Below, one piece after another: positions 12,609 through 47,138 of a stretch of DNA of 64,000 bases (its first letter is position 1; each line of letters begins with the position of its first letter). The notes under the pieces were generated by a model. The model ran no database searches, was not told the DNA's origin, and worked only from the letters and a program-made list of their open reading frames with translations. The position numbers were made by a program, and so were the translations under genes. Location: positions 1 to 64,000 of the forward strand of contig CAKZNV010000036.1 of assembly GCA_937132085.1 (NCBI GenBank). The letters run 5' to 3'. Source of the DNA: an uncultured Rubritalea sp. (GTDB lineage: Bacteria > Verrucomicrobiota > Verrucomicrobiia > Verrucomicrobiales > Akkermansiaceae).

Positions 12609-13259
12609 ATGAACACCCCCAAGTATGCATTAGCAGCAGTATTGTTGCCCCTATTTGTTTCATCAGCACAGGCTGTAGAATTTACTCTTAAATTTGAAGA
12701 AGCTGATGCAGGAATCCGCTGGACAGGCATCGTAGACTCTACTGCCGACACACTCGCGATCACTGCCTGGGACGTGACTGGAAATCAGTTTTATCCAACG
12801 TCAAACTCACTTCCGATGATGTTCAGCGCCGTGTCTGGTGAATTTGGCAGCTATGACGTCCCTGATGACTGGGATGGAAACCTAGAGAACTGGGGATTCA
12901 TCTCAGACAATACCTGGCTTGATTATCAATGGACCAATGCAGCCACAGAGAAAGATGGTGGAGACCTAGCCTTTGGCGGAATCAACCCACCACCACTAGC
13001 GGTAGGACTGACCTTAGAATATACACCTTCATCTATTCAACAGAGCGGAGACCTATTTTTCATTACTCCAGAGCACTTCGCTAGAACGTATACAGACACG
13101 CATACTTTAGCCAGTCCGCTCCATGGTGCTAATTTAACTGCGACTAGCATGAAACTAGACGGAGTGGAAATATCAGCAGCACAAGCGGTGCCAGAGCCAT
13201 CTAGTGCCTTACTCCTACTCGTAGGTGCAGCAGGTGCTCTCGTTCGTAGAAAACGCTAG
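12609..13259 (+). CDS. PEP-CTERM protein, paralogue 1
   Basis: 216 residues: signal peptide ending near AQA, a mature beta-rich domain with DWDGNLENWGF, and a C-terminal sorting signal VPEPSS followed by a hydrophobic helix and VRRKR. PEP-CTERM proteins are processed by exosortase and placed at the cell surface or in exopolymer; no exosortase gene is in this window. It is a close paralogue of the genes at 13301 and 23168 (shared pattern WTGxVDxTxDTL). Confidence 0.85.
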   Translation: MNTPKYALAAVLLPLFVSSAQAVEFTLKFEEADAGIRWTGIVDSTADTLAITAWDVTGNQFYPTSNSLPMMFSAVSGEFGSYDVPDDWDGNLENWGFISDNTWLDYQWTNAATEKDGGDLAFGGINPPPLAVGLTLEYTPSSIQQSGDLFFITPEHFARTYTDTHTLASPLHGANLTATSMKLDGVEISAAQAVPEPSSALLLLVGAAGALVRRKR

Positions 13260-13300
13260 TAGTTTTTCTATTTTAAAATCAACTCATCCCCTCTTACTTT

Positions 13301-13936
13301 ATGAACATCTCCCAATACATATTAGCAGTATTAGCGATTCCTTTTGCCACATCATTTTCGCAAGCAGCGGAGTTTGATCTCAACTTTGAAGACACCAGCA
13401 CAGGCGTGAACTGGGCAGGAGTAGTAGACACGACGACTGATACATTATCGATTAGCCAGTGGTCAGCTACAGGAGGTGACTATTTTGCTACAGAGGCATC
13501 ATTACCGATGATCTTTAATGCTGTGACTGGAGCTAGCTCTAGCTACGACATTCCTGATGTCTGGGATGGCAACCTCACAAACTGGGGATTCCTTTCAGAG
13601 AACATCTGGACCGATTATACCTGGAATAGCCAGCCTAACATTGACAGAGGCAACAACCCTCTCTTCATTGACATCAACACCACTAAAATAGGTATCGGTG
13701 TAAAAGAAACGTATGTCCCTGAAGCAATCGATGGCGGTGATGAAGGCTTTACTATCATTCCAGCACGCTTTGACAGAACTTATACGAACGCAGCTACAAT
13801 GACCGACTCTGTAAATGAGAAGCGTGACATCACGGCAACGACCTTTACAGCCACCCCAGTAGCAGTGCCAGAGCCATCCAGTGCTTTACTCCTGCTCGTA
13901 GGCGCAGCAGGTGCCCTCGTTCGCAGAAAACGCTAG
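13301..13936 (+). CDS. PEP-CTERM protein, paralogue 2
   Basis: 211 residues, a tandem duplicate of the preceding gene 41 nt downstream. Shared features are the signal peptide, the EDTSTGVNW motif, DVWDGNLTNWGF, and the tail VPEPSSALLLLVGAAGALVR followed by RKR. The tails of paralogues 1, 2 and 3 are nearly identical while the mature domains differ, so surface sorting is probably the most constrained part. Function of the mature domain unknown. Confidence 0.85.
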   Translation: MNISQYILAVLAIPFATSFSQAAEFDLNFEDTSTGVNWAGVVDTTTDTLSISQWSATGGDYFATEASLPMIFNAVTGASSSYDIPDVWDGNLTNWGFLSENIWTDYTWNSQPNIDRGNNPLFIDINTTKIGIGVKETYVPEAIDGGDEGFTIIPARFDRTYTNAATMTDSVNEKRDITATTFTATPVAVPEPSSALLLLVGAAGALVRRKR

Positions 13937-13942
13937 TGAAAA

Positions 13943-14548
13943 CTAAGACCTTTTACGTCTTAATATCAGCATCACCCCTAGGCCTAACATTGCCGCTGAG
14001 CTAGGCTCCGGCACAGTATTAGCCACACCTATGCTGCTCGCTGCGTTTGACCAGTTTCCAACTCCATCTCCTGAGCCATCATACTGTAATGTATCTGCTC
14101 CCGTTGCCGTAGCTACAAAATCATAAACTGTTGGACCACCAGACCAAATACCTTTCGCCACAGCAACATCAACACGTCCGACATCCGTAGCAGTCCCCCA
14201 TTGCACGAATGATTCCATTGCGCTGGCGGTGCCAAAAGAGTTAGTATTAAAAAGCCCAAAATCGGCTGAAACATCATTTAAATCAATACTCAATGTAAGC
14301 ACAGCGATTTGCCCTGCGCCTAGATTTAGTGAGCCACTCGTCAGAGTTTGACCACTTAACTGGACATAACTAAATCTCGAACAAAACCACCAAGAACTGA
14401 TGTCTACCGTAGTGGCTCCATTGTTGAAAATCTCTACCCTGTCATTCCCTATCGTGTTTAAATAGTCGACTTCGTTAATTACGATCGCCGCCTTGGCAGA
14501 AGAAATCATAGCCAGCATCAGAGCTGCAGATTTTAGTTTATTTTTCAT
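13943..14548 (-). CDS. Lamin-tail-domain PEP-CTERM protein
   Basis: 201 residues with a signal peptide (about 1-20). The mature part opens with IVINEVDYLNTIGNDRVEIF and contains DISSWWF and LGAGQIAVL, typical of the bacterial lamin-tail (LTD) immunoglobulin-like domain. The C-terminus is VPEPSSAAMLGLGVMLILRR followed by KRS, a PEP-CTERM signal. It is convergent with PEP-CTERM paralogue 2, with 6 nt between the stops. Confidence 0.8.
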   Translation of the reverse strand: MKNKLKSAALMLAMISSAKAAIVINEVDYLNTIGNDRVEIFNNGATTVDISSWWFCSRFSYVQLSGQTLTSGSLNLGAGQIAVLTLSIDLNDVSADFGLFNTNSFGTASAMESFVQWGTATDVGRVDVAVAKGIWSGGPTVYDFVATATGADTLQYDGSGDGVGNWSNAASSIGVANTVPEPSSAAMLGLGVMLILRRKRS

Positions 14549-23167: not shown

Positions 23168-23791
23168 ATGAACATCCCCCGATACGCCTTAACATTACTA
23201 GCTATTCCCTTAACTACCTCTTCAGCACTAGCTGTGGATTTTAATGTCTTTTTTGAAGACACAAGCACAGGAGTAGACTGGACAGGAGTAGTAGATACCA
23301 CCACAGACACTTTATCTATTAGCCAATGGAATACTACAGGAAATGAATTCTACCTAGGTCAGAGTTCATTACCTATTATCTTTAATGCAGTGACAGGATC
23401 TGATGGCAGTTTCGACATACCTGATACTTGGGATGGAACTCTAACAAACTGGGGATTCGTTTCAGAAAACCCGTTCACAACTTATCAGTGGACTGATAGG
23501 TTCGGTTCAGAAATCGCCTTCGATCTACCTAATACAAACGGTGTAGGCGTAGGCGTTATAGAAACTTACATAGAAGAGTCGATTATCGGTTCAGGCAAAG
23601 GTGCTACAGTCACTCCAGCACGTGTGGATAGAACTTATACTAACTCCGCCGCCACTCATGACCCAATAAATAGTAGAACGTTAACAGCAACTACCTTTAC
23701 AACCACTTCAGCAGAAGCAGTGCCAGAACCATCCAGCGCTATGCTCTTATTAGTAGGTGCAGCAGGCGCCCTCACTCGTAGAAAACGCTAA
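23168..23791 (+). CDS. PEP-CTERM protein, paralogue 3
   Basis: 207 residues, closely related to the proteins at 12609 and 13301 although 10 kb away. It has a signal peptide ending near ALA, the motif FEDTSTGVDWTGVVDTTTDT, DTWDGTLTNWGF, and the PEP-CTERM tail VPEPSSAMLLLVGAAGALTR plus RKR. The start is an ATG within ATGAACATCCCCC, a context shared with the paralogues. Surface-sorted; mature function unknown. Confidence 0.85.
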   Translation: MNIPRYALTLLAIPLTTSSALAVDFNVFFEDTSTGVDWTGVVDTTTDTLSISQWNTTGNEFYLGQSSLPIIFNAVTGSDGSFDIPDTWDGTLTNWGFVSENPFTTYQWTDRFGSEIAFDLPNTNGVGVGVIETYIEESIIGSGKGATVTPARVDRTYTNSAATHDPINSRTLTATTFTTTSAEAVPEPSSAMLLLVGAAGALTRRKR

Positions 23792-32398: not shown

Positions 32399-33334
32399 TT
32401 ACTTACGACGTCTGAGAAGCGCCATTGTTGAACCAAGAAGAACGAGTAAAACAGATGACGGTTCAGGCACAACAGTTAGGCTAATCACACCCGCTCCAGT
32501 CTCTGAAGTGAGGTCATAATCTTGGTCAAAATTCACAGAAAGCGCATCACCATTTTCTAGCGTGCCTTCTAACAAACCTGAAGTAGGCACAACATTTCCT
32601 GCACCGACAGCTAGCCCATCGATAGTGAATCCACTACCGATCACGTTGATAATACCGCCAGCCTCTGTGCGGAAATCATTCAAAAAAGTCCCACCTCGGA
32701 CTTCGATCATCCCTTCAGAAGCCTCGATCTGACCAGAGAACGAACCATCAAAGATCTTAATTAGAGAGCCAGAATCAAAAGCTTCAGCGTCGTCCGCAAT
32801 CGTGCCATCATTGAAAATAATCTGCCCACCACCTTGAGCCAGAAGGTCATCACCAAAACTACCGCCATTCACAGTAATCATTGCGCCACCCATCGCCAAT
32901 AGATCTCCGCTATTAGAGCCGAACGCATCGTTGATCGTAATAATCGCATTACCAAAGGCTACGATAGCATTATCATCAGCATCGACCCCAGCAAAGATTC
33001 CAGAATGGATGACTGCTGTTGAGTTACCACCCAAGGCAAAAGAACCCGCAAAGGTTCCAGCATTAACCGTAGTAGTCGAGACACCACTAGCAAGGTAAGA
33101 AATCCCATCGGGGAGACCACCGCTAGTCCTTAAACCTGTTACTTCAGCACCCGTGTCAAAGATCACATTCGTCCCAGCCGCACTAGCACCCGCATCATAA
33201 TCTACTTCGTAGTAGTCCGAAATCACCGAGTTAATGGTAAGCGTGCTGCCTGGCGTAGGAATGATCACACTAGCGTGCAACATTGTTGGAGTGACCAATA
33301 CACTTAGCGCAGTTGATAGTATTACTTTTTTCAT
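32399..33334 (-). CDS. PEP-CTERM protein with beta-helix-type repeats
   Basis: 311 residues with a signal peptide (about 1-21). The mature chain consists of about 18-residue repeats such as VNAGTFAGSF, IHSGIFAGVD, VNGGSFGDDL and IFDGSFSGQI, suggesting a parallel beta-helix. It ends VPEPSSVLLVLLGSTMALLR plus RRK, a PEP-CTERM sorting signal. It is convergent with the cupin gene (6 nt between stops). Likely a surface structural or adhesive protein. Confidence 0.8.
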   Translation of the reverse strand: MKKVILSTALSVLVTPTMLHASVIIPTPGSTLTINSVISDYYEVDYDAGASAAGTNVIFDTGAEVTGLRTSGGLPDGISYLASGVSTTTVNAGTFAGSFALGGNSTAVIHSGIFAGVDADDNAIVAFGNAIITINDAFGSNSGDLLAMGGAMITVNGGSFGDDLLAQGGGQIIFNDGTIADDAEAFDSGSLIKIFDGSFSGQIEASEGMIEVRGGTFLNDFRTEAGGIINVIGSGFTIDGLAVGAGNVVPTSGLLEGTLENGDALSVNFDQDYDLTSETGAGVISLTVVPEPSSVLLVLLGSTMALLRRRK

Positions 33335-33581
33335 GCTGAAGCTTCTAACACACTCAACCTTTCCACTTCATTACCACAGCGATAATGATGGAATTTTTTC
33401 ACCTAAAATCTACAAGCTACCTAGCATCATAGTAGTGATTATAAAAAATTGTAACCCACAGAAGAACAGGCATCTTTTACTTTTCCTATTCTAACAGATG
33501 TAACCGATATCCACCCTCTCGAAACTCTTACCCTCCTTTGGCATTGACTGTGATTACTTCAATCTGTAATAATATAGTATT

Positions 33582-34136
33582 ATGTTTACCAAAATGAAGT
33601 TTCTACTATCTGTTGCCTCCATTTATTCACTTAGTGTGCTTGCATCAGCGGCAGCTCTAACGATGACTATTGACCCGACGACTAAGGAGTTGAGCTTTTC
33701 AGGTAGCGCCTCAGGAACATCTCTAGAACTAGCAGGTGTTATTCAAGTGACTAGTTGGAACCATGAGAGTGTCTCAGGGCCCAATGAATCGCTCGCTATA
33801 GGAACCGCTTTTAATGAGACCTTTTCAAACAGAGCTGACATCATTGTTTATGAAAACACTACTACAATGGTAACGGGGTTACGTATTCTCTTTGCGAATA
33901 ATAACCCTACAACCATTCCAACTATCACAGCTAACGCAACTAAGATTAGCTATGCAGGCATGGCCTCTAATTTCGTCACTATACTAGACAGTTATGCCCC
34001 TGGGACCTTTACTCAAAACCAAGGTTCTGGTTACGGTGACATAAGCTTCACCAATACCGCAGTGCCAGAACCAAGTTCAACCACGTTTTTGTTATCCTCA
34101 TGTTTACTAGCGCTCTCTATTCGTAGACGTAAATAA
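33582..34136 (+). CDS. PEP-CTERM protein
   Basis: 184 residues with a signal peptide ending near ASA. The mature region is short and beta-rich. The C-terminus is AVPEPSSTTFLLSSCLLALS then IRRRK, a divergent PEP-CTERM signal. It is not closely related to the 12609/13301/23168 paralogues. Function unknown. Confidence 0.78.
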   Translation: MFTKMKFLLSVASIYSLSVLASAAALTMTIDPTTKELSFSGSASGTSLELAGVIQVTSWNHESVSGPNESLAIGTAFNETFSNRADIIVYENTTTMVTGLRILFANNNPTTIPTITANATKISYAGMASNFVTILDSYAPGTFTQNQGSGYGDISFTNTAVPEPSSTTFLLSSCLLALSIRRRK

Positions 34137-38917: not shown

Positions 38918-38993
38918 TGGTCGGCTTGGCAGGGATCGAACCTGCAACTCTCTGGGTAAAAACCAGATACTCTACCAGTTGAGTTACAAACCG
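38918..38993 (-). tRNA. tRNA-Lys(UUU)
   Basis: Acceptor CGGTTTG/CAAGCCG, A73 and encoded CCA. Anticodon arm TCTGG-TTTTTAC-CCAGA gives anticodon UUU. T arm GCAGG-TTCGATC-CCTGC. Fully canonical cloverleaf. Confidence 0.93.
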
Positions 38994-39004
38994 TTGTTAA
39001 AAAT

Positions 39005-39107
39005 TGGCAGAACCTTGAGGACTTGCACCCCATGCCACAATTGGCACTCATCGTTTAGCAAACGAGTCCGGCACGCTTGTCCGGCACGCTTGTCCGGTTA
39101 AGATTCT
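39005..39107 (-). tRNA. tRNA-Ser(GCU) with duplicated D-loop segment
   Basis: Acceptor AGAATCT/AGGTTCT, G73, encoded CCA. Anticodon loop TTGCTAA gives GCU. Class II variable arm TGCCA-ATTG-TGGCA. T loop is TGCAAGT. The D region contains a 13-nt unit (ACAAGCGTGCCGG) twice in tandem, so the gene is 103 nt and the D arm cannot be standard. Confidence 0.8.
39068..39097. repeat. 13-bp tandem duplication in tRNA-Ser D arm
   Basis: CCGGCACGCTTGT occurs at 39068-39080 and 39081-39093, followed by a third CCGG (39094-39097). Confidence 0.95.
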
Positions 39108-39115
39108 AGAGAAAA

Positions 39116-39189
39116 TACCTACGGTAGGAGTCGAACCTACAACATACTGATTCTAAGTCAGCCTTCTCTACCAGTTGGAATACGTAGGC
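39116..39189 (-). tRNA. Class I tRNA with anticodon UAG (Leu-type codon)
   Basis: Acceptor GCCTACG/CGTAGGT (G1-U72), A73, no encoded CCA. Anticodon arm GCTGA-CTTAGAA-TCAGT gives UAG, which reads CUA (Leu). The variable loop is only 5 nt, unlike all normal tRNA-Leu. T arm GTAGG-TTCGACT-CCTAC is canonical; the D stem has a mismatch. True charging identity uncertain (Arg-like body). Confidence 0.75.
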
Positions 39190-39199
39190 GTTTAAAAAT

Positions 39200-39275
39200 T
39201 GGCATTCCTGCTGGGATTCGAACCCAGGTCGTTCGGCTGAAAACCGAGTGTGTTAAGCCTCTACACTACAGGAAC
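39200..39275 (-). tRNA. tRNA-Glu(UUC)
   Basis: Acceptor GTTCCTG/CAGGAAT, G73, encoded CCA. Anticodon loop TTTTCAG gives UUC; the top anticodon pair is a mismatch. D arm GTGT-AGAGGCTTA-ACAC is Glu-like. Confidence 0.9.
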
Positions 39276-39285
39276 ACATTAAAGA

Positions 39286-39360
39286 TACACCTGGAAGGAC
39301 TCGAACCTTTAACCTCCAGATTCGTAATCTAGCGCTCTAATCCAATTGAGCTACGAGTGC
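39286..39360 (-). tRNA. tRNA-Arg(ACG)
   Basis: Anticodon arm CTAGA-TTACGAA-TCTGG gives ACG. Acceptor GCACTCG/CAGGTGT has a C6-A67 mismatch, and the T stem AAAGG/CCTTC has an A-C mismatch. No encoded CCA. Canonical T loop TTCGAGT. Confidence 0.85.
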
Positions 39361-39381
39361 GTTATCTTGTTAGTGAAAAAA

Positions 39382-39466
39382 TACGAAATGGAAGATTTGA
39401 ACTCCTCGGCGTCCTACCCACTGTTTTTTGCCAACGGTTTAGAAAACCGACGTGGGAACATCTCGC
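39382..39466 (-). tRNA. Degenerate class II-like tRNA, anticodon UCU
   Basis: Acceptor GCGAGAT/ATTTCGT with A73 and T loop TTCAAAT define the ends. The anticodon hairpin CGGT-TTTCTAA-ACCG would give UCU. A long insert pairs TTGGC with GCCGA like a variable arm, and CCCAC can pair GTGGG around the whole centre. No normal D arm can be drawn. The Leu-like acceptor conflicts with an Arg anticodon. Confidence 0.55.
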
Positions 39467-39572
39467 TTAGATATAAAAAATTCTGTGGTAGCCGCAAAAA
39501 GGCGCAAGATTCACAAAACCTTCATAATAAATCAATTTTGTGGCTTTTGTGCTTCTTTGTGGCAAAAAATAT

Positions 39573-39646
39573 TGGAGCAGCATCTCGGATTTGAACCGAA
39601 ATCCTCTGGGTGGAAACCAGACATTCTACCATTGAACTAATGCTAC
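39573..39646 (-). tRNA. tRNA-Gly(UCC)
   Basis: Acceptor GTAGCAT/ATGCTGC, U73 (typical for Gly), encoded CCA. Anticodon arm TCTGG-TTTCCAC-CCAGA gives UCC. T loop TTCAAAT. Confidence 0.92.
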
Positions 39647-39654
39647 TTTAAAAT

Positions 39655-39728
39655 TGGTTCGAGTTAGAGGTTATGCTCCCCTGCTCTCTGCATGTAAAAC
39701 AGACGTGCTACTATTACACTAAACTCGA
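39655..39728 (-). tRNA. tRNA-Val(UAC) with atypical T loop
   Basis: Acceptor TCGAGTT/AACTCGA, A73, encoded CCA. D arm GTGT-AATAGTA-GCAC. Anticodon arm TCTGT-TTTACAT-GCAGA gives UAC. T arm AGGGG-AGCATAA-CCTCT lacks the usual TTC start of the T loop. Confidence 0.85.
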
Positions 39729-39742
39729 ATTTATGATGAATA

Positions 39743-39829
39743 TGGTAGGTTTGGTGAGATTCGAACTCACTAGGTCTTGCGACGATTGGGTTACAGCCAA
39801 GTCCAGCCCTCCAGCTCTGGCGCAAACCT
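39743..39829 (-). tRNA. tRNA-Tyr(GUA)
   Basis: Acceptor AGGTTTG/CAAACCT, A73, encoded CCA. D arm CCAG/CTGG. Anticodon loop CTGTAAC gives GUA. Class II variable arm GTC-GCAA-GAC. T arm GTGAG-TTCGAAT-CTCAC canonical. Confidence 0.92.
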
Positions 39830-39848
39830 ACATATTACTATAAATGAA

Positions 39849-39919
39849 TCCTCCTGCACGGTAATGCTCCGCGGTCTCTCGGTTATCAACCGAGTGCTCT
39901 ACTATTGAGCTACAGGAGA
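39849..39919 (-). tRNA. tRNA-Ile(GAU) with atypical T loop
   Basis: Acceptor TCTCCTG/CAGGAGG, A73, no CCA. D arm GCTC-AATAGTA-GAGC. Anticodon arm CTCGG-TTGATAA-CCGAG gives GAU. T arm CGCGG-AGCATTA-CCGTG, the same AGCAT loop type as tRNA-Val. Confidence 0.87.
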
Positions 39920-39922
39920 CAG

Positions 39923-40379
39923 TAAATTTAGCATTTATGATTTAGCATGTTGTCATTTGAGAGGCTATTCGGTAGCGTTCAGTATGGATAAAGATGCAAT
40001 GAAACAACGCTCTAAAGAATTTTCTCTAAGAACCTTGAAAGTCGTTACTGCGATGCCTCAAACTACAGAGGCAAAAGTTATTGCACATCAAATTGCTAAA
40101 TCAGGAACCTCGGTAGGCGCAAACTATAGAGCCGCTTGTAGAGCTCGAAGCACTAAAGAGTTTATAGCCAAACTAGGCACTGTTCTTGAAGAAACAGATG
40201 AAACTGCTTTTTGGCTAGAGATCATTATTGAAGCGAATATTTTACCAGCAAATAGAATTAAAACTCTACTAACAGAAGCTGATGAACTATGTGCTATATT
40301 CTACAAAACTATCGAATCTGCTAGAAACAAGTAATCCATTTTCTAAATGATCACATGCTAAATGTTCCATGTTAAATGA
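39923..40379 (+). mobile_element. Element carrying a four-helix-bundle gene, flanked by inverted repeats
   Basis: The left end contains TTTAGCATGTTGTCATTT. The reverse complement of the right end reads TTTAGCATGTGATCATTT, an 18-bp imperfect inverted repeat. Both ends recur in the ORF-less element at 40461-40570. The element separates tRNA-Ile from tRNA-His. It has the opposite orientation to the array. I infer a small mobile or intervening-sequence element. Confidence 0.65.
39984..40334 (+). CDS. Four-helix-bundle protein (23S rRNA IVP family)
   Basis: 116 residues from the ATG at 39984. It contains KEFSLRTLKVVTAMPQTTEA, AHQIAKSGTSVGANYRAACR and EETDETAFWLEIIIEA, the signature of the S23/four-helix-bundle family (TIGR02436 type). 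Members are encoded inside 23S rRNA intervening sequences and as scattered stand-alone genes. It is the only plus-strand gene inside the tRNA array and lies within inverted repeats. An upstream alternative start adds nine residues. Confidence 0.9.
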   Translation: MDKDAMKQRSKEFSLRTLKVVTAMPQTTEAKVIAHQIAKSGTSVGANYRAACRARSTKEFIAKLGTVLEETDETAFWLEIIIEANILPANRIKTLLTEADELCAIFYKTIESARNK

Positions 40380-40382
40380 AAA

Positions 40383-40455
40383 TTCCCTCGCTCGGGATCG
40401 AACCGAGATATCCACGATCACAGTGTGGGATTTTAACCGGTTAAACTACAAAGGA
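40383..40455 (-). tRNA. tRNA-His(GUG)
   Basis: Acceptor TCCTTTG/CGAGGGA, A73, no CCA. The nucleotide at -1 is C, not the G usual for tRNA-His. Anticodon loop CTGTGAT gives GUG, with a mismatch at 31-39. T arm CTCGG-TTCGATC-CCGAG canonical. Confidence 0.87.
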
Positions 40456-40460
40456 GGTCT

Positions 40461-40570
40461 TAAATTTAGGATTTATGATTTAGCACGTTGTCATTTACTT
40501 GCTTACAACCCTTCAGGTTTGGATAACGCTTGCGAAAATGATCACATGCTAAATGCTCCTTGTTAAATGT
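40461..40570. mobile_element. ORF-less miniature copy of the four-helix-bundle element
   Basis: The left end TAAATTTAGGATTTATGATT and the right end AAATGATCACATGCTAAATG repeat those of the 39923-40379 element with one or two changes. Only about 40 unrelated bp lie between, so the gene is missing. It sits between tRNA-His and tRNA-Thr. Confidence 0.65.
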
Positions 40571-40575
40571 TAATA

Positions 40576-40647
40576 TGGAGCCAACGGTGAGGCTTTCACT
40601 CACATGTTCCGATTTACAAGATCGGTGCACTTATCTGCCACGGTGGC
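40576..40647 (-). tRNA. tRNA-Thr(UGU) with reduced D arm
   Basis: Acceptor GCCACCG/CGTTGGC (one C-U mismatch), U73, encoded CCA. D arm is only GCA-GATAAG-TGC with no GG pair. Anticodon arm CCGAT-CTTGTAA-ATCGG gives UGU. T arm GTGAG-TGAAAGC-CTCAC. Confidence 0.83.
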
Positions 40648-40658
40648 TTTTGAAAGAA

Positions 40659-40730
40659 TACTTCTAACAGGACTCGAACCTATAACCTAGGGATTATGAG
40701 TCCCCCGCTCTACCATTGAGCTATAGAAGT
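40659..40730 (-). tRNA. tRNA with CAU anticodon (Met or Ile2), copy 1
   Basis: Acceptor ACTTCTA/TAGAAGT perfect, A73, no CCA. D arm GCTC-AATGGTA-GAGC. Anticodon arm GGGGA-CTCATAA-TCCCT gives CAU. T loop TTCGAGT. Could be elongator Met or, after lysidine modification, Ile. Confidence 0.9.
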
Positions 40731-40734
40731 TTTA

Positions 40735-40809
40735 TGGTGGCTCTGCGCAGATTCGAACTGCGATAGTCTGGCTCAAAACCAGATGTAATGACCATTATAC
40801 GACAGAGCG
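40735..40809 (-). tRNA. tRNA-Gln(UUG)
   Basis: Acceptor CGCTCTG/CAGAGCC with a C1-C72 mismatch, A73, encoded CCA. Anticodon arm TCTGG-TTTTGAG-CCAGA gives UUG. T arm CGCAG-TTCGAAT-CTGCG. Confidence 0.9.
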
Positions 40810-40822
40810 GTTACTAATTAAA

Positions 40823-40898
40823 TGGAGGCTTCTGTGGGTAACGCTCCCACCTACGACTGTTTTGCAGACAGCGCCGTTCACTTGCTCGGTCAAAAGCC
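40823..40898 (-). tRNA. tRNA-Cys(GCA) with atypical T loop
   Basis: Acceptor GGCTTTT/AGAAGCC, U73 (Cys identity), encoded CCA. D stem CCG/CGG. Anticodon loop CTGCAAA gives GCA. T arm GTGGG-AGCGTTA-CCCAC, the third AGCRTWA-type loop. Confidence 0.88.
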
Positions 40899-40908
40899 TT
40901 ATTAAATA

Positions 40909-40986
40909 TGGTCGGGAATGCTGGATTCGAACCAACGGCCTCAGCAATCCAAATGCCGCGCTCTGACCAAACTGAGCTAATTCCCG
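40909..40986 (-). tRNA. tRNA-Pro(UGG)
   Basis: Acceptor CGGGAAT/ATTCCCG perfect, A73, encoded CCA. D arm GCTC/GAGC. Anticodon arm CGGCA-TTTGGAT-TGCTG gives UGG. T arm GTTGG-TTCGAAT-CCAGC. Fully canonical. Confidence 0.94.
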
Positions 40987-40998
40987 TGATCTTAAAAT

Positions 40999-41073
40999 TG
41001 GCACTTCTACATGGCTCCGCCCCATGAACTCCGGGTTAACAGCCCAGCGTGATACTCATTTCACTATAGAAGT
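40999..41073 (-). tRNA. tRNA-Asn(GUU) with atypical T loop
   Basis: Acceptor ACTTCTA/TAGAAGT, G73, encoded CCA. D arm GTGA-AATGAGTA-TCAC. Anticodon arm CTGGG-CTGTTAA-CCCGG gives GUU. T arm CATGG-GGCGGAG-CCATG with a non-standard loop. Confidence 0.87.
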
Positions 41074-41079
41074 AGATAT

Positions 41080-41154
41080 TGGTTGCGAGGATGGGAATTG
41101 AACCCACGGGAAACGGCTTATGAGACCGTCTTGAATACCAGCATTCACCTCGCT
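41080..41154 (-). tRNA. tRNA with CAU anticodon, copy 2 (A1-A72 mismatch)
   Basis: Acceptor AGCGAGG/CCTCGCA pairs except position 1-72 (A-A), A73, encoded CCA. Anticodon arm ACGGT-CTCATAA-GCCGT gives CAU. T arm GTGGG-TTCAATT-CCCAT. An unpaired 1-72 resembles initiator tRNA, but the three G-C anticodon pairs of initiators are missing. Confidence 0.85.
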
Positions 41155-41178
41155 ATAAAAATTATGTTAGAAAAAATA

Positions 41179-41254
41179 TGGTGGAAACAATGGGACTTGC
41201 ACCCAACTCACACTACTTGCAAGGCAGCGTCGCCACTATGGAACATGTGTCCCC
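41179..41254 (-). tRNA. tRNA-Ala(UGC)
   Basis: Acceptor GGGGACA/TGTTTCC contains the G3-U70 pair that defines alanine identity; A73 and encoded CCA. Anticodon loop CTTGCAA gives UGC. T loop TGCAAGT, as in the array tRNA-Ser. Confidence 0.88.
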
Positions 41255-41298
41255 ACGTTGAAAAATGTTTATAAGGTTGAGAAGGACACCATTATAGA

Positions 41299-42131
41299 TA
41301 GGAACTTGCGCAGGAGTATCGCACAGGCTGCTTGCCTGGCCTTCCCTGCTCTTCCACTTAGCTGAGCACATGAGTTGGCTCACACTAAGTATTCCTACAT
41401 GACTGCTTTTGTTAGAGGAGTAGCTATTCTCCTATCCTGACACACTATTCAATATTCTACCTACCGTCTGCCTTGCGAGCAGTGAAGAAGCGCTAGCCTC
41501 ACCGTGCGGTTTCCTATCAATCCGCAGAAACCTTGCGAGTTTCATTGGATCCTAATTACTCTCAAAGGAGCTTAGGACTTAAGCCATTTTCATGAGCCAG
41601 TGGACACGTCTTTGCGTTTAAGTCAAACACCGGGATTCGCACCCAGGGCTAAACGATTAGAGATCGTCTGCTCTACTACTGAGCTATATTTGCAGTTTCC
41701 TTCTGTAAGATGTGCATGTCCGGTAGCTTCATTGCCTTTTGAGCAACAAAATACTACACACCTCTTATCATCACTGCTGTCACAGCGATCACGGTCTTTA
41801 AGACTTGAGCCTTTTTAGAACTCTCACCTCTAGACTACCATCAAGCACTTAGCGATCACACCTCGCACTTCTATGGCTACCCTTCATCCTCAGATGTCGA
41901 TGTTTGCGTAGAGACTCCGTAGGTTGCTATACCTACCTAGCAGTTGAACATTTGTCATCACTGCTAGCAGCATCTCCCACCTTCCATCATAGCCGCCAGT
42001 CAGGTATTACCCGCTCTGACACTTCTGGACTAGGTTTGCTTAGTTGTCCCAGTATTACACTAGGCGGACAAACAGGAATGTTGCCCCTTTACGCACCTTT
42101 CAGCACGCGTATCTCATGACGCCAAGCCGCC
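41299..42131 (-). ncRNA. Large structured RNA, GOLLD/ROOL-like candidate
   Basis: About 830-900 nt inside the tRNA array with no credible protein gene. Hairpins on the minus strand include GAAAC-UCGCAAG-GUUUC (41527-41543), CUGC-UCGCAAG-GCAG (41468-41482), UUGC-UCAAAAG-GCAA (41732-41746), CCUAGU-GUAAU-ACUGGG (42048-42064), UAGCAGU/ACUGCUA (41938-41966), GUAGGU/ACCUAC (41919-41936), AUCGCUG/CAGUGAU (41770-41789), UACGC/GCGUA (42090-42111) and a closing helix at 41299-41307 with 41387-41397. A tRNA (41622-41693) is embedded. Size, place in a tRNA array and the embedded tRNA recall GOLLD; ROOL or a new class is equally possible. No model search could be run. Confidence 0.5.
41622..41693 (-). tRNA. 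tRNA-Arg(UCU)-like, inside the large RNA region
   Basis: Body GCAAATA/TGTTTGA (position 1-72 mismatched), D arm GCTC-AGTAGTA-GAGC, anticodon arm GACGA-TCTCTAA-TCGTT giving UCU but with C instead of U at position 33, T arm CTGGG-TGCGAAT-CCCGG, no CCA. Possibly a structural tRNA mimic rather than a translating tRNA. Confidence 0.7.
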
Positions 42132-43452: not shown

Positions 43453-44901
43453 ATGAAGAGACTACTTTCAGCTATTACTCTAACCGTCGCAAGTCTTGCT
43501 AGCTTCTCCCAAGCTCAAGACTCTCCGGAAAAACGCACCAAACCAAACATCGTTCTCTTTTTTATCGATGATCTAGGCTGGGCAGACATCGGAGCCAACG
43601 GCTCTAAGTTTCACGAAACTCCTAACATAGATAAACTAGCCAATAATGGAGTGAATCTGAAAAACTCCTACTCAGCGCATGCTGTCTGCTCTCCCACTAG
43701 AGCTGCACTCATGAGTGGTAAAGCTCCGCAGCGAGTAGGCATCACTCAGTGGATCCACCAGCCATCACACATTCACCTAAAGTCTGAAGAATTCACTATC
43801 GCTGAAGCATTCCAATCAAACGGTTACACTACAGGATACATCGGTAAATGGCACCTCGGAGAGAAAGATGAGCAGCTACCTACCGCTCAAGGCTACGATT
43901 GGAAAAAAGCTGTCAACAGGGCTGGCCAACCCGGCAGCTACTTCTTCCCTTACATTGGAAGACAGAATAGAGGTGCATTCTGGAATGTCCCAGACCTAGG
44001 TGATGGCAAGCAAGGAGACTACCTAACAGATGCTCTGACTGATAAGGCTTTGACCTTTATTGACGAAAACAAAGACAGCCCATTCTTCCTCACATTCGCT
44101 CACTACGCCGTCCACACCCCCATCCAGGCGCCTAAAGATCTCGTAGAGAAATACAAAGCCAAAAAGCTCGAACTTTTTGGAGACACTAAATCTCCAAAAT
44201 CTACTCAGCGCTACAATACTCAGAACAAAGACCGTCAGGACAACCCGACCTACGCAGCTATGATGGAGAGCCTCGATACCAACATCGGACGCATTCTCAC
44301 CAAGTTAGAACAAAACAATCTGTTAGAAAACACCATCATCATTATCACCTCAGACAATGGCGGACTATCACACCTCAGAAACCCAGGCGTCACCTCTAAC
44401 AGACCACTCAAATCTGGCAAAGGCTGGAACTACGAAGGCGGAATCAGAGTTCCACACATCATTTCATGGAAAGGCATCATTCAGCCAGCCATCAACGACA
44501 CTCCTACCATCACCATGGATATCTACCCTACTCTGTTAGACCTCGCAGGCCTAGAGCTAAAGCCACAACAGCACCTAGATGGCATGTCTATTAAGTCGAC
44601 TTTATTCGAAGATGATCAGCCTAGCGACAAGCTAAAGAATCGTTTCCTAGCGTGGACCTACCCACACAATCACGGATCTGGCCACAAGCCATCACACGCG
44701 ATCCGAAAAGATGGCTGGAAGCTTATCCACTTTGAAAACGGCGAAACTTACGAACTCTACAATCTCAACGACGACATCGGTGAAAGCAAAAACCTAGCGA
44801 AAGAACACCCTCAAAAAGTGAAGACGCTTGATGCGCTTTTAATGCAATGGATTAAAGACACCACACCGATACAACCGATCTTCCAGAAAGCCAAAAAATA
44901 A
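43453..44901 (+). CDS. Secreted sulfatase (arylsulfatase A type)
   Basis: 482 residues with a signal peptide ending near SQA. The formylglycine motif is CSPTR (Cys79, Arg83), metal-binding Asp39-Asp40 lie in FFIDDLGW, and the downstream IGKWHLGE, HYAVHTPIQAP and TSDNGG motifs are all present. It removes sulfate esters, probably from marine polysaccharides. The needed FGE maturase is not in the window. Its TAA stop overlaps the next ATG by 1 nt, so it is translationally coupled to the first membrane paralogue. Confidence 0.93.
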   Translation: MKRLLSAITLTVASLASFSQAQDSPEKRTKPNIVLFFIDDLGWADIGANGSKFHETPNIDKLANNGVNLKNSYSAHAVCSPTRAALMSGKAPQRVGITQWIHQPSHIHLKSEEFTIAEAFQSNGYTTGYIGKWHLGEKDEQLPTAQGYDWKKAVNRAGQPGSYFFPYIGRQNRGAFWNVPDLGDGKQGDYLTDALTDKALTFIDENKDSPFFLTFAHYAVHTPIQAPKDLVEKYKAKKLELFGDTKSPKSTQRYNTQNKDRQDNPTYAAMMESLDTNIGRILTKLEQNNLLENTIIIITSDNGGLSHLRNPGVTSNRPLKSGKGWNYEGGIRVPHIISWKGIIQPAINDTPTITMDIYPTLLDLAGLELKPQQHLDGMSIKSTLFEDDQPSDKLKNRFLAWTYPHNHGSGHKPSHAIRKDGWKLIHFENGETYELYNLNDDIGESKNLAKEHPQKVKTLDALLMQWIKDTTPIQPIFQKAKK

Positions 44902-45470
44902 TGTCCAAAACGAAAAAACTAAAAGCAAAATTCATCGAGAGATTCTTCTTTTGGTTTGGAGTATTACTAGTCGGCCTCAGCGGCTATCTCTTCACTAGCG
45001 CTTATTTGAAGTCCGATCCTACTGAGTTGGATTCCACTCAAATCTCCTTTAATGGAATCAATATCTACTCCGAGCACGAATACATACACCCTGATTCTAC
45101 TCCTCTAGCAAGCGGAGCAACCCTCGTATCAATCCTAAGCCCAAGCTCCACTCCTAAGCACCCATTCGGTGTGATCCAATACCCAAAAGGCACGTGGGTA
45201 GGCGGGAGTTGATTCCCCGTTCACATTTCCTCACCGCAGTTTGCGGCTACTTACACATCATTAACCAGACTTTCCAGTGTGCTAAGCACAAGGCCAGATC
45301 TTCATAATAACCGAGAAACTCTGCAACGAGTCACACTACTGCTCTTCAATGGAGACACTTACCTCTCACCCATCCGCCTTGAGCTCTATCCACTAATCAC
45401 TGGTATTCTATTCCTCATTTTACCCGGGATCTGTATCATAAAAAGGCGCAGAACTAGGGCTATAAAATGA
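44901..45470 (+). CDS. Tandem membrane paralogue 1, interrupted by in-frame UGA
   Basis: The frame codes for 103 residues to TGA at 45210-45212, then stays open in the same frame to 45470 (189 residues in all). The N-terminus is FIERFFFWFGVLLVGLSGYL (membrane helix), then FGVIQYPKG; after the TGA come RVTLLLFNGDTYLSPIRLEL and a second helix ending IIKRRRTR. Both halves match paralogues 3 and 4. A hairpin CCGC-AGTTT-GCGG (45234-45246) begins 21 nt after the TGA, its loop after 25 nt. It may be UGA readthrough, selenocysteine insertion or a pseudogene. Confidence 0.6.
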
Positions 45471-45479
45471 ACCTTTAAT

Positions 45480-46040
45480 ATGAAAACTCCTAAACCCAGC
45501 TTCATCGAACGATTCTTCTTCTGGTTCGGTCTATTACTTGTAGGCCTCAGCGGCTACCTATATACTACCGCTTATTTAAAGTCTGAAACTCATTTCAATG
45601 CACAGCATGAAATTGATCAAACTAAGACCGTCACCTTCATCCCGTTTTATAACCCTCCTATCGCGGAACATGAGTTCACAAATAAAGATGTAACTAAACT
45701 CTTTGGGGTCGGCCAATATCCAAAAGACTACTCTCTCGGCTACCTGAGCTGAGGTGCGGTTCATGGCGCTCTACCGCGGTCTGCGGTAACTACTACAGTG
45801 AGTCCATACTTCGCTCTACCATCTGCAACGATTACCTCCCAATACCTCCGCAGTGCAGTCTATGCTAAGCCCACGCTCTACTCAGGTAACAGCCTAAGCC
45901 AAAGAGTCACCTTACTTTTCTTTGATGGCCAATCATATCTCTCACCCATACGACTAGAATACTACCCCTTCATCTGCGGTGCAGTATTTCTCATTTTACC
46001 TATTATTGGGATTTTCAAAAGACGTAGAGTTAGAGTTTAA
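45480..46040 (+). CDS. Tandem membrane paralogue 2, interrupted by in-frame UGA
   Basis: 91 codons including TGA at 45750-45752, then open in the same frame to 46040 (186 residues in all). N-terminal FIERFFFWFGLLLVGLSGYL and FGVGQYPKD precede the TGA; RVTLLFFDGQSYLSPIRLE and a helix ending IFKRRRVR follow. A hairpin TACCGC-GGTCT-GCGGTA (45772-45788) has its loop exactly 25 nt after the TGA, as in paralogue 1. The TGA aligns with a Trp codon (VWPG) in paralogue 3. No frameshift is seen. Confidence 0.6.
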
Positions 46041-46077: not shown

Positions 46078-46593
46078 ATGTCTAGATTAAGAAAATTAAG
46101 AATGAGTATCATCGAGAAGTTTTTCTTCTGGCTTGGGGTAATCTTGCTAAGTTTGAGCCTCTACCTTTTTAAATCTGCTCACAATCAGACTCAAAACTTA
46201 CTAGAGAATCAAACCTCCTCTCAACCTCTCACATTGGAGACAATTTCCACAATTTCAATAGCTGAACATGAATATATAAACCAAAACTCCTTAAAACTAT
46301 TTGGAGTAGCCCAATACCCAAAAGGCAGTTTTTTAGGAGCCAATGTATGGCCTGGGCTAGATATGACTTCAGAACTCGTTCGACATAGCGTTCTAACTAA
46401 ACAACCTCATCTCGAAACAAATTACTGTCTCAACGAACGAATCACGATTCTATTTTTCAACAACGATGTTTACTTTTCTCCTATACGACTAGAGATCTAC
46501 CCACTTCTAGTTGGCATACTCTCTCTCATTCTACCTTTTATCGGGATCATAAAAAGACGTAGAGCTAGAGCGTTGATTAACAATCATAAATAA
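46078..46593 (+). CDS. Tandem membrane paralogue 3 (uninterrupted)
   Basis: 171 residues from the ATG at 46078. N-terminal helix SIIEKFFFWLGVILLSLSLY, AEHEYINQNSLKLFGVAQYP, then ITILFFNNDVYFSPIRLEIY and a C-terminal helix ending GIIKRRRAR. It has no stop at the site where paralogues 1 and 2 carry UGA. Two-helix membrane protein of unknown function. Confidence 0.8.
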   Translation: MSRLRKLRMSIIEKFFFWLGVILLSLSLYLFKSAHNQTQNLLENQTSSQPLTLETISTISIAEHEYINQNSLKLFGVAQYPKGSFLGANVWPGLDMTSELVRHSVLTKQPHLETNYCLNERITILFFNNDVYFSPIRLEIYPLLVGILSLILPFIGIIKRRRARALINNHK

Positions 46594-46598
46594 CACGC

Positions 46599-47138
46599 AT
46601 GCTCATAGACATTAAAAAACACAAACTAAGCCTCATTCAGGCTTTGCTATTTTGGACTGGAATTCTTTTCGTTAGCTTGGCTATCTATTTATATGTGATG
46701 GCCGCTGTTAACCTCATGAATATCAAAGAGGCCAATGATAGTGAGCTAGACATCATCGTTTCAGATCATGATTATAAGTTCCATATTCAACATGAATTCT
46801 CCAATAACGACAAAAATAACCTCTTCGGTGTGAGTCAATATCCACAAGGATCTTTGGTGGCTCATTATGGTAGCTTTCCTTTCTATTTGAATAACTCACA
46901 GACTAAAGTAACGATAATCGCAAGCGCTTACCTAAAGAACAAAAGCACGAGTAGGTCGCCTCTAAGCCATGGCAGCGCACTCAAACAGCAAACCACCCTC
47001 TTCTTCTGCTGCGACCGTGTGTATCTATCTCCTATTCGCCTAGAACTCTATCCGCTAACCTTAGGCGTCGCCCTCCTAATCTGGCCGATCATAGGCATCA
47101 TAAAAAGACGCAACTCTAGAGAGTTGACTAGCGCTTAG
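46599..47138 (+). CDS. Tandem membrane paralogue 4 (uninterrupted)
   Basis: 179 residues, 5 nt after paralogue 3. It has the same plan: SLIQALLFWTGILFVSLAIY helix, HEFSNNDKNNLFGVSQYPQG, YLSPIRLELYPL and a C-terminal helix ending IGIIKRRNSR. It is the most divergent copy. The end overlaps the convergent lipoate ligase-like gene by 11 nt. Confidence 0.8.
   Translation: MLIDIKKHKLSLIQALLFWTGILFVSLAIYLYVMAAVNLMNIKEANDSELDIIVSDHDYKFHIQHEFSNNDKNNLFGVSQYPQGSLVAHYGSFPFYLNNSQTKVTIIASAYLKNKSTSRSPLSHGSALKQQTTLFFCCDRVYLSPIRLELYPLTLGVALLIWPIIGIIKRRNSRELTSA

Follow-up and report, generated by a model that had tools for sequence, protein, structure and literature searches.

Two adjacent paralogous genes of the window, that is, of the whole 64,000-nucleotide stretch of DNA analysed, are read here, with a probability of about 0.82, as selenoprotein genes in which selenocysteine (Sec) would be inserted at an in-frame UGA under the guidance of a downstream SECIS hairpin. 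The proposal, drawn from sequence, is supported by the sel genes of the same genome, by a SelD that itself contains a UGA, by a loop (AGUUU) that this SelD has in common with paralogue 1, and by purifying selection past the UGA. The recoding mechanism itself is already known; on the best reading, the paralogue family would constitute a new selenoprotein family. The relevant features are as follows.

43453–44901, forward strand: S1-type sulfatase of 482 residues, an open reading frame whose CSPTR motif and signal peptide were read by eye
44901–45470, forward strand: paralogue 1, 189 residues when translated with the UGA as Sec (residue 104)
45210–45212, forward strand: candidate Sec UGA of paralogue 1, aligned in one column with that of paralogue 2
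45234–45246, forward strand: SECIS-like hairpin 1, CCGC-AGUUU-GCGG, with its loop 25 nt past the UGA of paralogue 1
45480–46040, forward strand: paralogue 2, 186 residues when translated with the UGA as Sec (residue 91)
45750–45752, forward strand: candidate Sec UGA of paralogue 2, aligned in one column with that of paralogue 1
45772–45788, forward strand: SECIS-like hairpin 2, UACCGC-GGUCU-GCGGUA, with its loop 25 nt past the UGA of paralogue 2
46078–46593, forward strand: paralogue 3, free of internal stops, with Asn-Val-Trp-Pro at the UGA site and no RGUYY-type hairpin
46599–47138, forward strand: paralogue 4, free of internal stops, with Gly-Ser-Phe-Pro at the UGA site and no RGUYY-type hairpin

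The sulfatase, probably the leading gene of the operon, is followed by the four paralogues in tandem on one strand, with intergenic gaps of −1, 9, 37 and 5 bases; the stop codon of the sulfatase shares one base with the ATG of paralogue 1. Arylsulfatase-type matches of the leading gene in NCBIfam all lie under the cut-off (best 162 bits). The family profile matches paralogues 1 and 2 with 264 and 272 bits, respectively, and one TGA lies inside each match. All four paralogues begin with positive charge and a hydrophobic helix, carry FGVxQYP[KQ] in the middle domain, and close with the C-terminal block YxSPIRLExYP, a second helix and KRR; the sulfatase-led operon is best read as encoding two-helix membrane proteins. 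Two AlphaFold2 models (mean pLDDT 50 and 52) display a helix–strands–helix order and are too poor for a fold search. Elsewhere in the window, the region 38918–41766 on the reverse strand holds a tRNA gene array (15 genes by Rfam, one of them inside GOLLD, and 12 by ARAGORN) followed by a GOLLD RNA (RF02032, 153 bits against a cut-off of 150) that contains a tRNA-Arg; this region lies about 1.7 kb upstream of the sulfatase operon. Six proteins encoded at 12609–14548, 23168–23791 and 32399–34136 bear PEP-CTERM-like VPEPSS...RRK tails (a motif read by eye), and two of the six are tandem relatives of each other. PEP-CTERM proteins would fit a tentative placement of the organism in Verrucomicrobiota, close to Akkermansiaceae.

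The original prediction placed one in-frame TGA in each of paralogues 1 and 2, and both were found, as was the claimed spacing of 25 nt from UGA to loop in the two hairpins. It also described the frames as remaining open long after the UGA, which stands, but its counts of 86 and 96 codons include the stop, and the open stretches measure 85 and 95 codons. The loop of hairpin 2, GGUCU, is that of E. coli fdhF. Both hairpins satisfy the bacterial SECIS rules on loop, stem and spacing as set out in PMC13188914. The same text gives an energy limit of −7.5 kcal/mol; hairpin 2, at −7.9 kcal/mol, falls within it and hairpin 1, at −5.3 to −6.6 kcal/mol, misses it, while the SelD hairpin of the same genome, taken alone, reaches −6.9 kcal/mol. 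At the UGA column, the predicted Trp of paralogue 3 proved in a MAFFT alignment to be Val, with Trp one residue further on, and paralogue 4 has Ser; the further statement that the residue is not Cys was upheld, since neither sequence has one. This lack of Cys, read from just two UGA-less paralogues, counts against Sec and is the main remaining weakness of the proposal. Around the UGA of paralogues 1 and 2 there is no CxxU or UxxC motif, and no nearby residues are well conserved, S-U-x-x-V-H excepted.

Hairpins of the kind originally described (a G among the first two loop bases, a stem of at least 4, and a distance of 16–37 nt from the UGA) follow 3086 of 6928 TGAs on both strands of about 152 kb; with approximately 45% of TGAs passing, that rule proves nothing alone. 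A stricter rule, demanding an RGUYY loop, at least four pairs, and G–C at three or more of the four pairs adjoining the loop, is satisfied by only two hairpins on both strands of the 64 kb window, namely those of paralogues 1 and 2. An RGUYU hairpin at 16–37 nt accompanies 9 of the 6928 TGAs. Besides the SelD TGA and those of paralogues 1 and 2, these include a neighbour of paralogue 2 that is out of frame; the remaining five all fail to combine at least 25 open codons before the TGA with at least 40 after it. These open-codon limits also define 121 distinct read-through-like TGAs, among which GC-rich RGUYY hairpins occur only in paralogues 1 and 2; ranked by energy under the published rules, hairpin 2 is fourth and hairpin 1 fifth of this set. 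Randomising synonymous codons (20,000 draws) yields such a hairpin in 0.85% of cases for paralogue 1 and in 0.01% for paralogue 2.

The selenocysteine machinery is present. The search for selA, selB, selC and selD proposed at the outset recovered all four in the same genome (4.46 Mb, 254 contigs, 98.7% complete): selA with 503 bits, selB with 306 bits against a curated cut-off of 242, the tRNA-Sec gene selC with 58 bits and the anticodon TCA, and selD, whose single in-frame TGA falls within the motif SCGG-U-ASK. The absence of sel genes, which the original prediction named as a ground for refutation, is thereby removed. Judged by its gene content, the organism uses selenocysteine. Across this genome and its relatives, SelA was found in 31 of 58 genomes and SelD exceeded the cut-off in 33; within the genus, each occurs in 11 of 12 genomes, and all 11 selD genes have an in-frame TGA. 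The G+C content of the window (0.446) matches that of the contig stretches bearing sel genes (0.42–0.47), and its tetranucleotide profile correlates with theirs at 0.95–0.98, as against 0.30–0.70 for seven short loci of relatives, which makes a mis-binned contig unlikely. Formate dehydrogenase was considered as an additional selenoprotein and set aside, its Fdh-alpha-like matches being devoid of a stop and under the cut-off; the paralogues aside, no selenoprotein other than SelD was identified in the genome.

The selD genes of the clade offer a set of hairpins with which those of the paralogues can be compared. Thirty loci were fetched, and 27 were resolved as UGA-containing, with L045 and L046 left unresolved. 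An RGUYY pentaloop lies exactly 32 nt past the UGA in 25 of the 27 (AGUUU in 14, GGUUC in 6, GGUCC in 2, and AGUUC, AGUCU and GGUCU in 1 each); the other two, L070 and L073, have a UGA without such a loop at 32 nt and rely on some other SECIS form. The RGUYY loop is likewise absent from the one selD locus of the Cys form. The seven-pair SelD stem is paired in 95.7% of cells, as compared with at most 56% in slid versions, and four pairs have changed on both sides (covariation); the loop motif follows in part from the Gln-Val-Leu codons. Both paralogue loops belong to the same RGUYY class and occur within it: AGUUU of paralogue 1 is the loop of the own-genome selD, and GGUCU of paralogue 2 is that of selD in a genome of the same genus. 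Because the codon frame over the loop is CAR-GTY-YTG in SelD and CRG-TYT in the paralogues, the shared loop is an RNA-level and not a protein-level likeness. SelD differs from the paralogues in spacing (32 versus 25 nt), in the pairs that close the loop (CA/UG versus GC/GC), and in its protein, which is unrelated to theirs. A covariance model built from the 25 SelD hairpins was tried as a genome-wide SECIS finder and abandoned: SelD (E 1.3e-4) was its sole significant match in the whole genome, two insignificant matches corresponded to no convincing gene, and the paralogue hairpins were missed, being absent also from the 17 matches obtained in the window up to E 10. A weak SelD-like hairpin elsewhere in the genome (L079, contig C74, near 33938; 16.1 bits, E 2) has its loop some 17 nt past an in-frame TGA whose frame spans just 15 plus 27 codons, and is probably a chance match.

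The sequence past the UGA has evolved under constraint. Substitution rates were computed by the Nei–Gojobori method with Jukes–Cantor correction, under which a saturated dS is only a rough figure; between paralogues 1 and 2, dS is saturated both upstream (2.0) and downstream (2.75) of the UGA; dN, by contrast, amounts to 0.33 upstream, 0.50 downstream, and 0.29 in the C-terminal block, where dN/dS is near 0.11. The 32 codons directly past the UGA are poorly conserved (dN 0.80). For comparison, the intact pair, paralogues 3 and 4, has a dN of 0.63 past the site, and of 0.36 within its C-terminal block. Neutral codon evolution downstream of the stop, named in the original prediction as a sign of nonsense mutation, is thus replaced by purifying selection in the comparison of paralogues 1 and 2, and a functionless frame would not be expected, at saturated divergence, to lack stops over 85 and 95 codons. 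The hairpin core is identical at 11 of 13 bases (8 of 8 in the stems) versus 14 of 35 in the surrounding bases (Fisher p 0.006), even though the encoded amino acid differs at two of the four codons that it spans. The two loop differences change the protein (Gln to Arg, Phe to Ser) yet preserve RGUYU.

These observations bear directly on the other explanations of the UGAs. If they were ordinary nonsense mutations, the genes would be pseudogenes or decaying, as the two adjoining intact paralogues and the poor conservation of the 32 codons next to the UGA (dN 0.80) might suggest; however, the UGA occupies one alignment column despite saturated synonymous divergence, the frames remain open for 85 and 95 further codons, dN/dS at the C-terminus is about 0.11, and the window holds no other hairpins of this loop-preserving kind, which renders decay very unlikely. 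Alternatively, the UGA might be read through with an ordinary residue such as Trp, the hairpin acting as a stimulator and short and long forms both being made. The Trp of paralogue 3 one residue from the site and the one-helix protein that the short form would represent are compatible with such read-through, but the hairpin loops belong to the selD loop class of the clade, and the ARAGORN list for the window includes no UGA-reading tRNA. Of 71 long open frames in the sequence analysed, 7 terminate at a TGA, beyond which they could be extended in frame by only 2–45 codons, so the code is not reassigned. Read-through of this type is considered highly improbable. Hardly any weight can be given to the notion that each gene is in fact two genes, the second starting from a GTG past the UGA: GTG codons do occur at 45279 and 45798, but they lie at unequal distances from the UGA (66 and 45 nt), a single frame runs the full length of each of paralogues 3 and 4, and the hairpins would be left unexplained.

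Searches for relatives of the family returned next to nothing. Neither Pfam nor NCBIfam yielded a family over the cut-off, PHROGs gave two weak and unconvincing matches only, and solved structures gave no significant match. Profile searches of 386 genomes of the order, 387 of the phylum and 260 of the family (overlapping sets that include the own genome) retained no homologue from outside the genome itself. The same was true of 58 relatives searched with one paralogue, of scans of genome contigs (which may omit very near genomes) and of viral contigs, and of phages and plasmids searched with paralogue 2. The only outside match, in genome G450 (E 9e-4, 46 positions), was dropped; it runs out of frame within an open reading frame that reads by eye as a glycosidase. 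None of the 119 families and subfamilies in Table 1 of PMC13188914 is recognisable as the paralogue family, nor was the family found described in the literature consulted on selenoproteins in Verrucomicrobia/Verrucomicrobiota or on selenoproteins lacking Cys homologues.

Under the selenocysteine reading, SelB together with Sec-tRNA would recognise the hairpin, with its RGUYU loop 25 nt downstream, and decode the in-frame UGA as Sec. Without selenium, or on failed recoding, translation would stop at the UGA and release proteins of 103 and 90 residues that possess the first membrane helix only. The full-length protein would comprise an N-terminal helix, a Sec-bearing middle domain and a C-terminal helix with KRRR behind it; the positive-inside rule would place the middle domain outside the inner membrane. 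In E. coli, Sec decoding of UGA succeeds on 30–40% of passages according to PMC4513850, so short and long forms of the paralogues should coexist. As no resolving Cys lies near the Sec, candidate roles are redox chemistry or metal contact involving a partner from outside, or selenium-dependent switching of the second membrane helix. A bolder version, put forward tentatively and rather doubtful, is that the family is restricted to the species, that Sec never replaced Cys but arose at a Val/Trp or Ser site, and that the UGA serves as a selenium-gated switch between one- and two-helix forms.

The lack of Cys at the corresponding site of paralogues 3 and 4 would be unusual for selenoproteins. According to a published survey (PMC12013277), Cys homologues exist for known selenoproteins, whereas the UGA-less paralogues have no Cys at the site. 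Selenoprotein A of glycine reductase (GrdA) was long cited (PMC1794560 and PMC1914089) as the sole selenoprotein without Cys homologues, although Cys homologues were later reported for it (PMC12013277); GrdA also has a CxxU redox motif (PMC13188914), unlike paralogues 1 and 2. Present-day selenoprotein finders depend on Cys homologues, and the authors of deep-Sep state (PMC12013277) that all selenoproteins known so far now seem to possess such homologues and that any without them may escape their method. Paralogues 1 and 2 are a concrete candidate for this missed class, in a genome whose SelD is UGA-encoded. If the reading is true, Sec would be recruitable in an orphan membrane protein with no Cys counterpart, and SECIS-first searches that ignore Cys homology would be justified.
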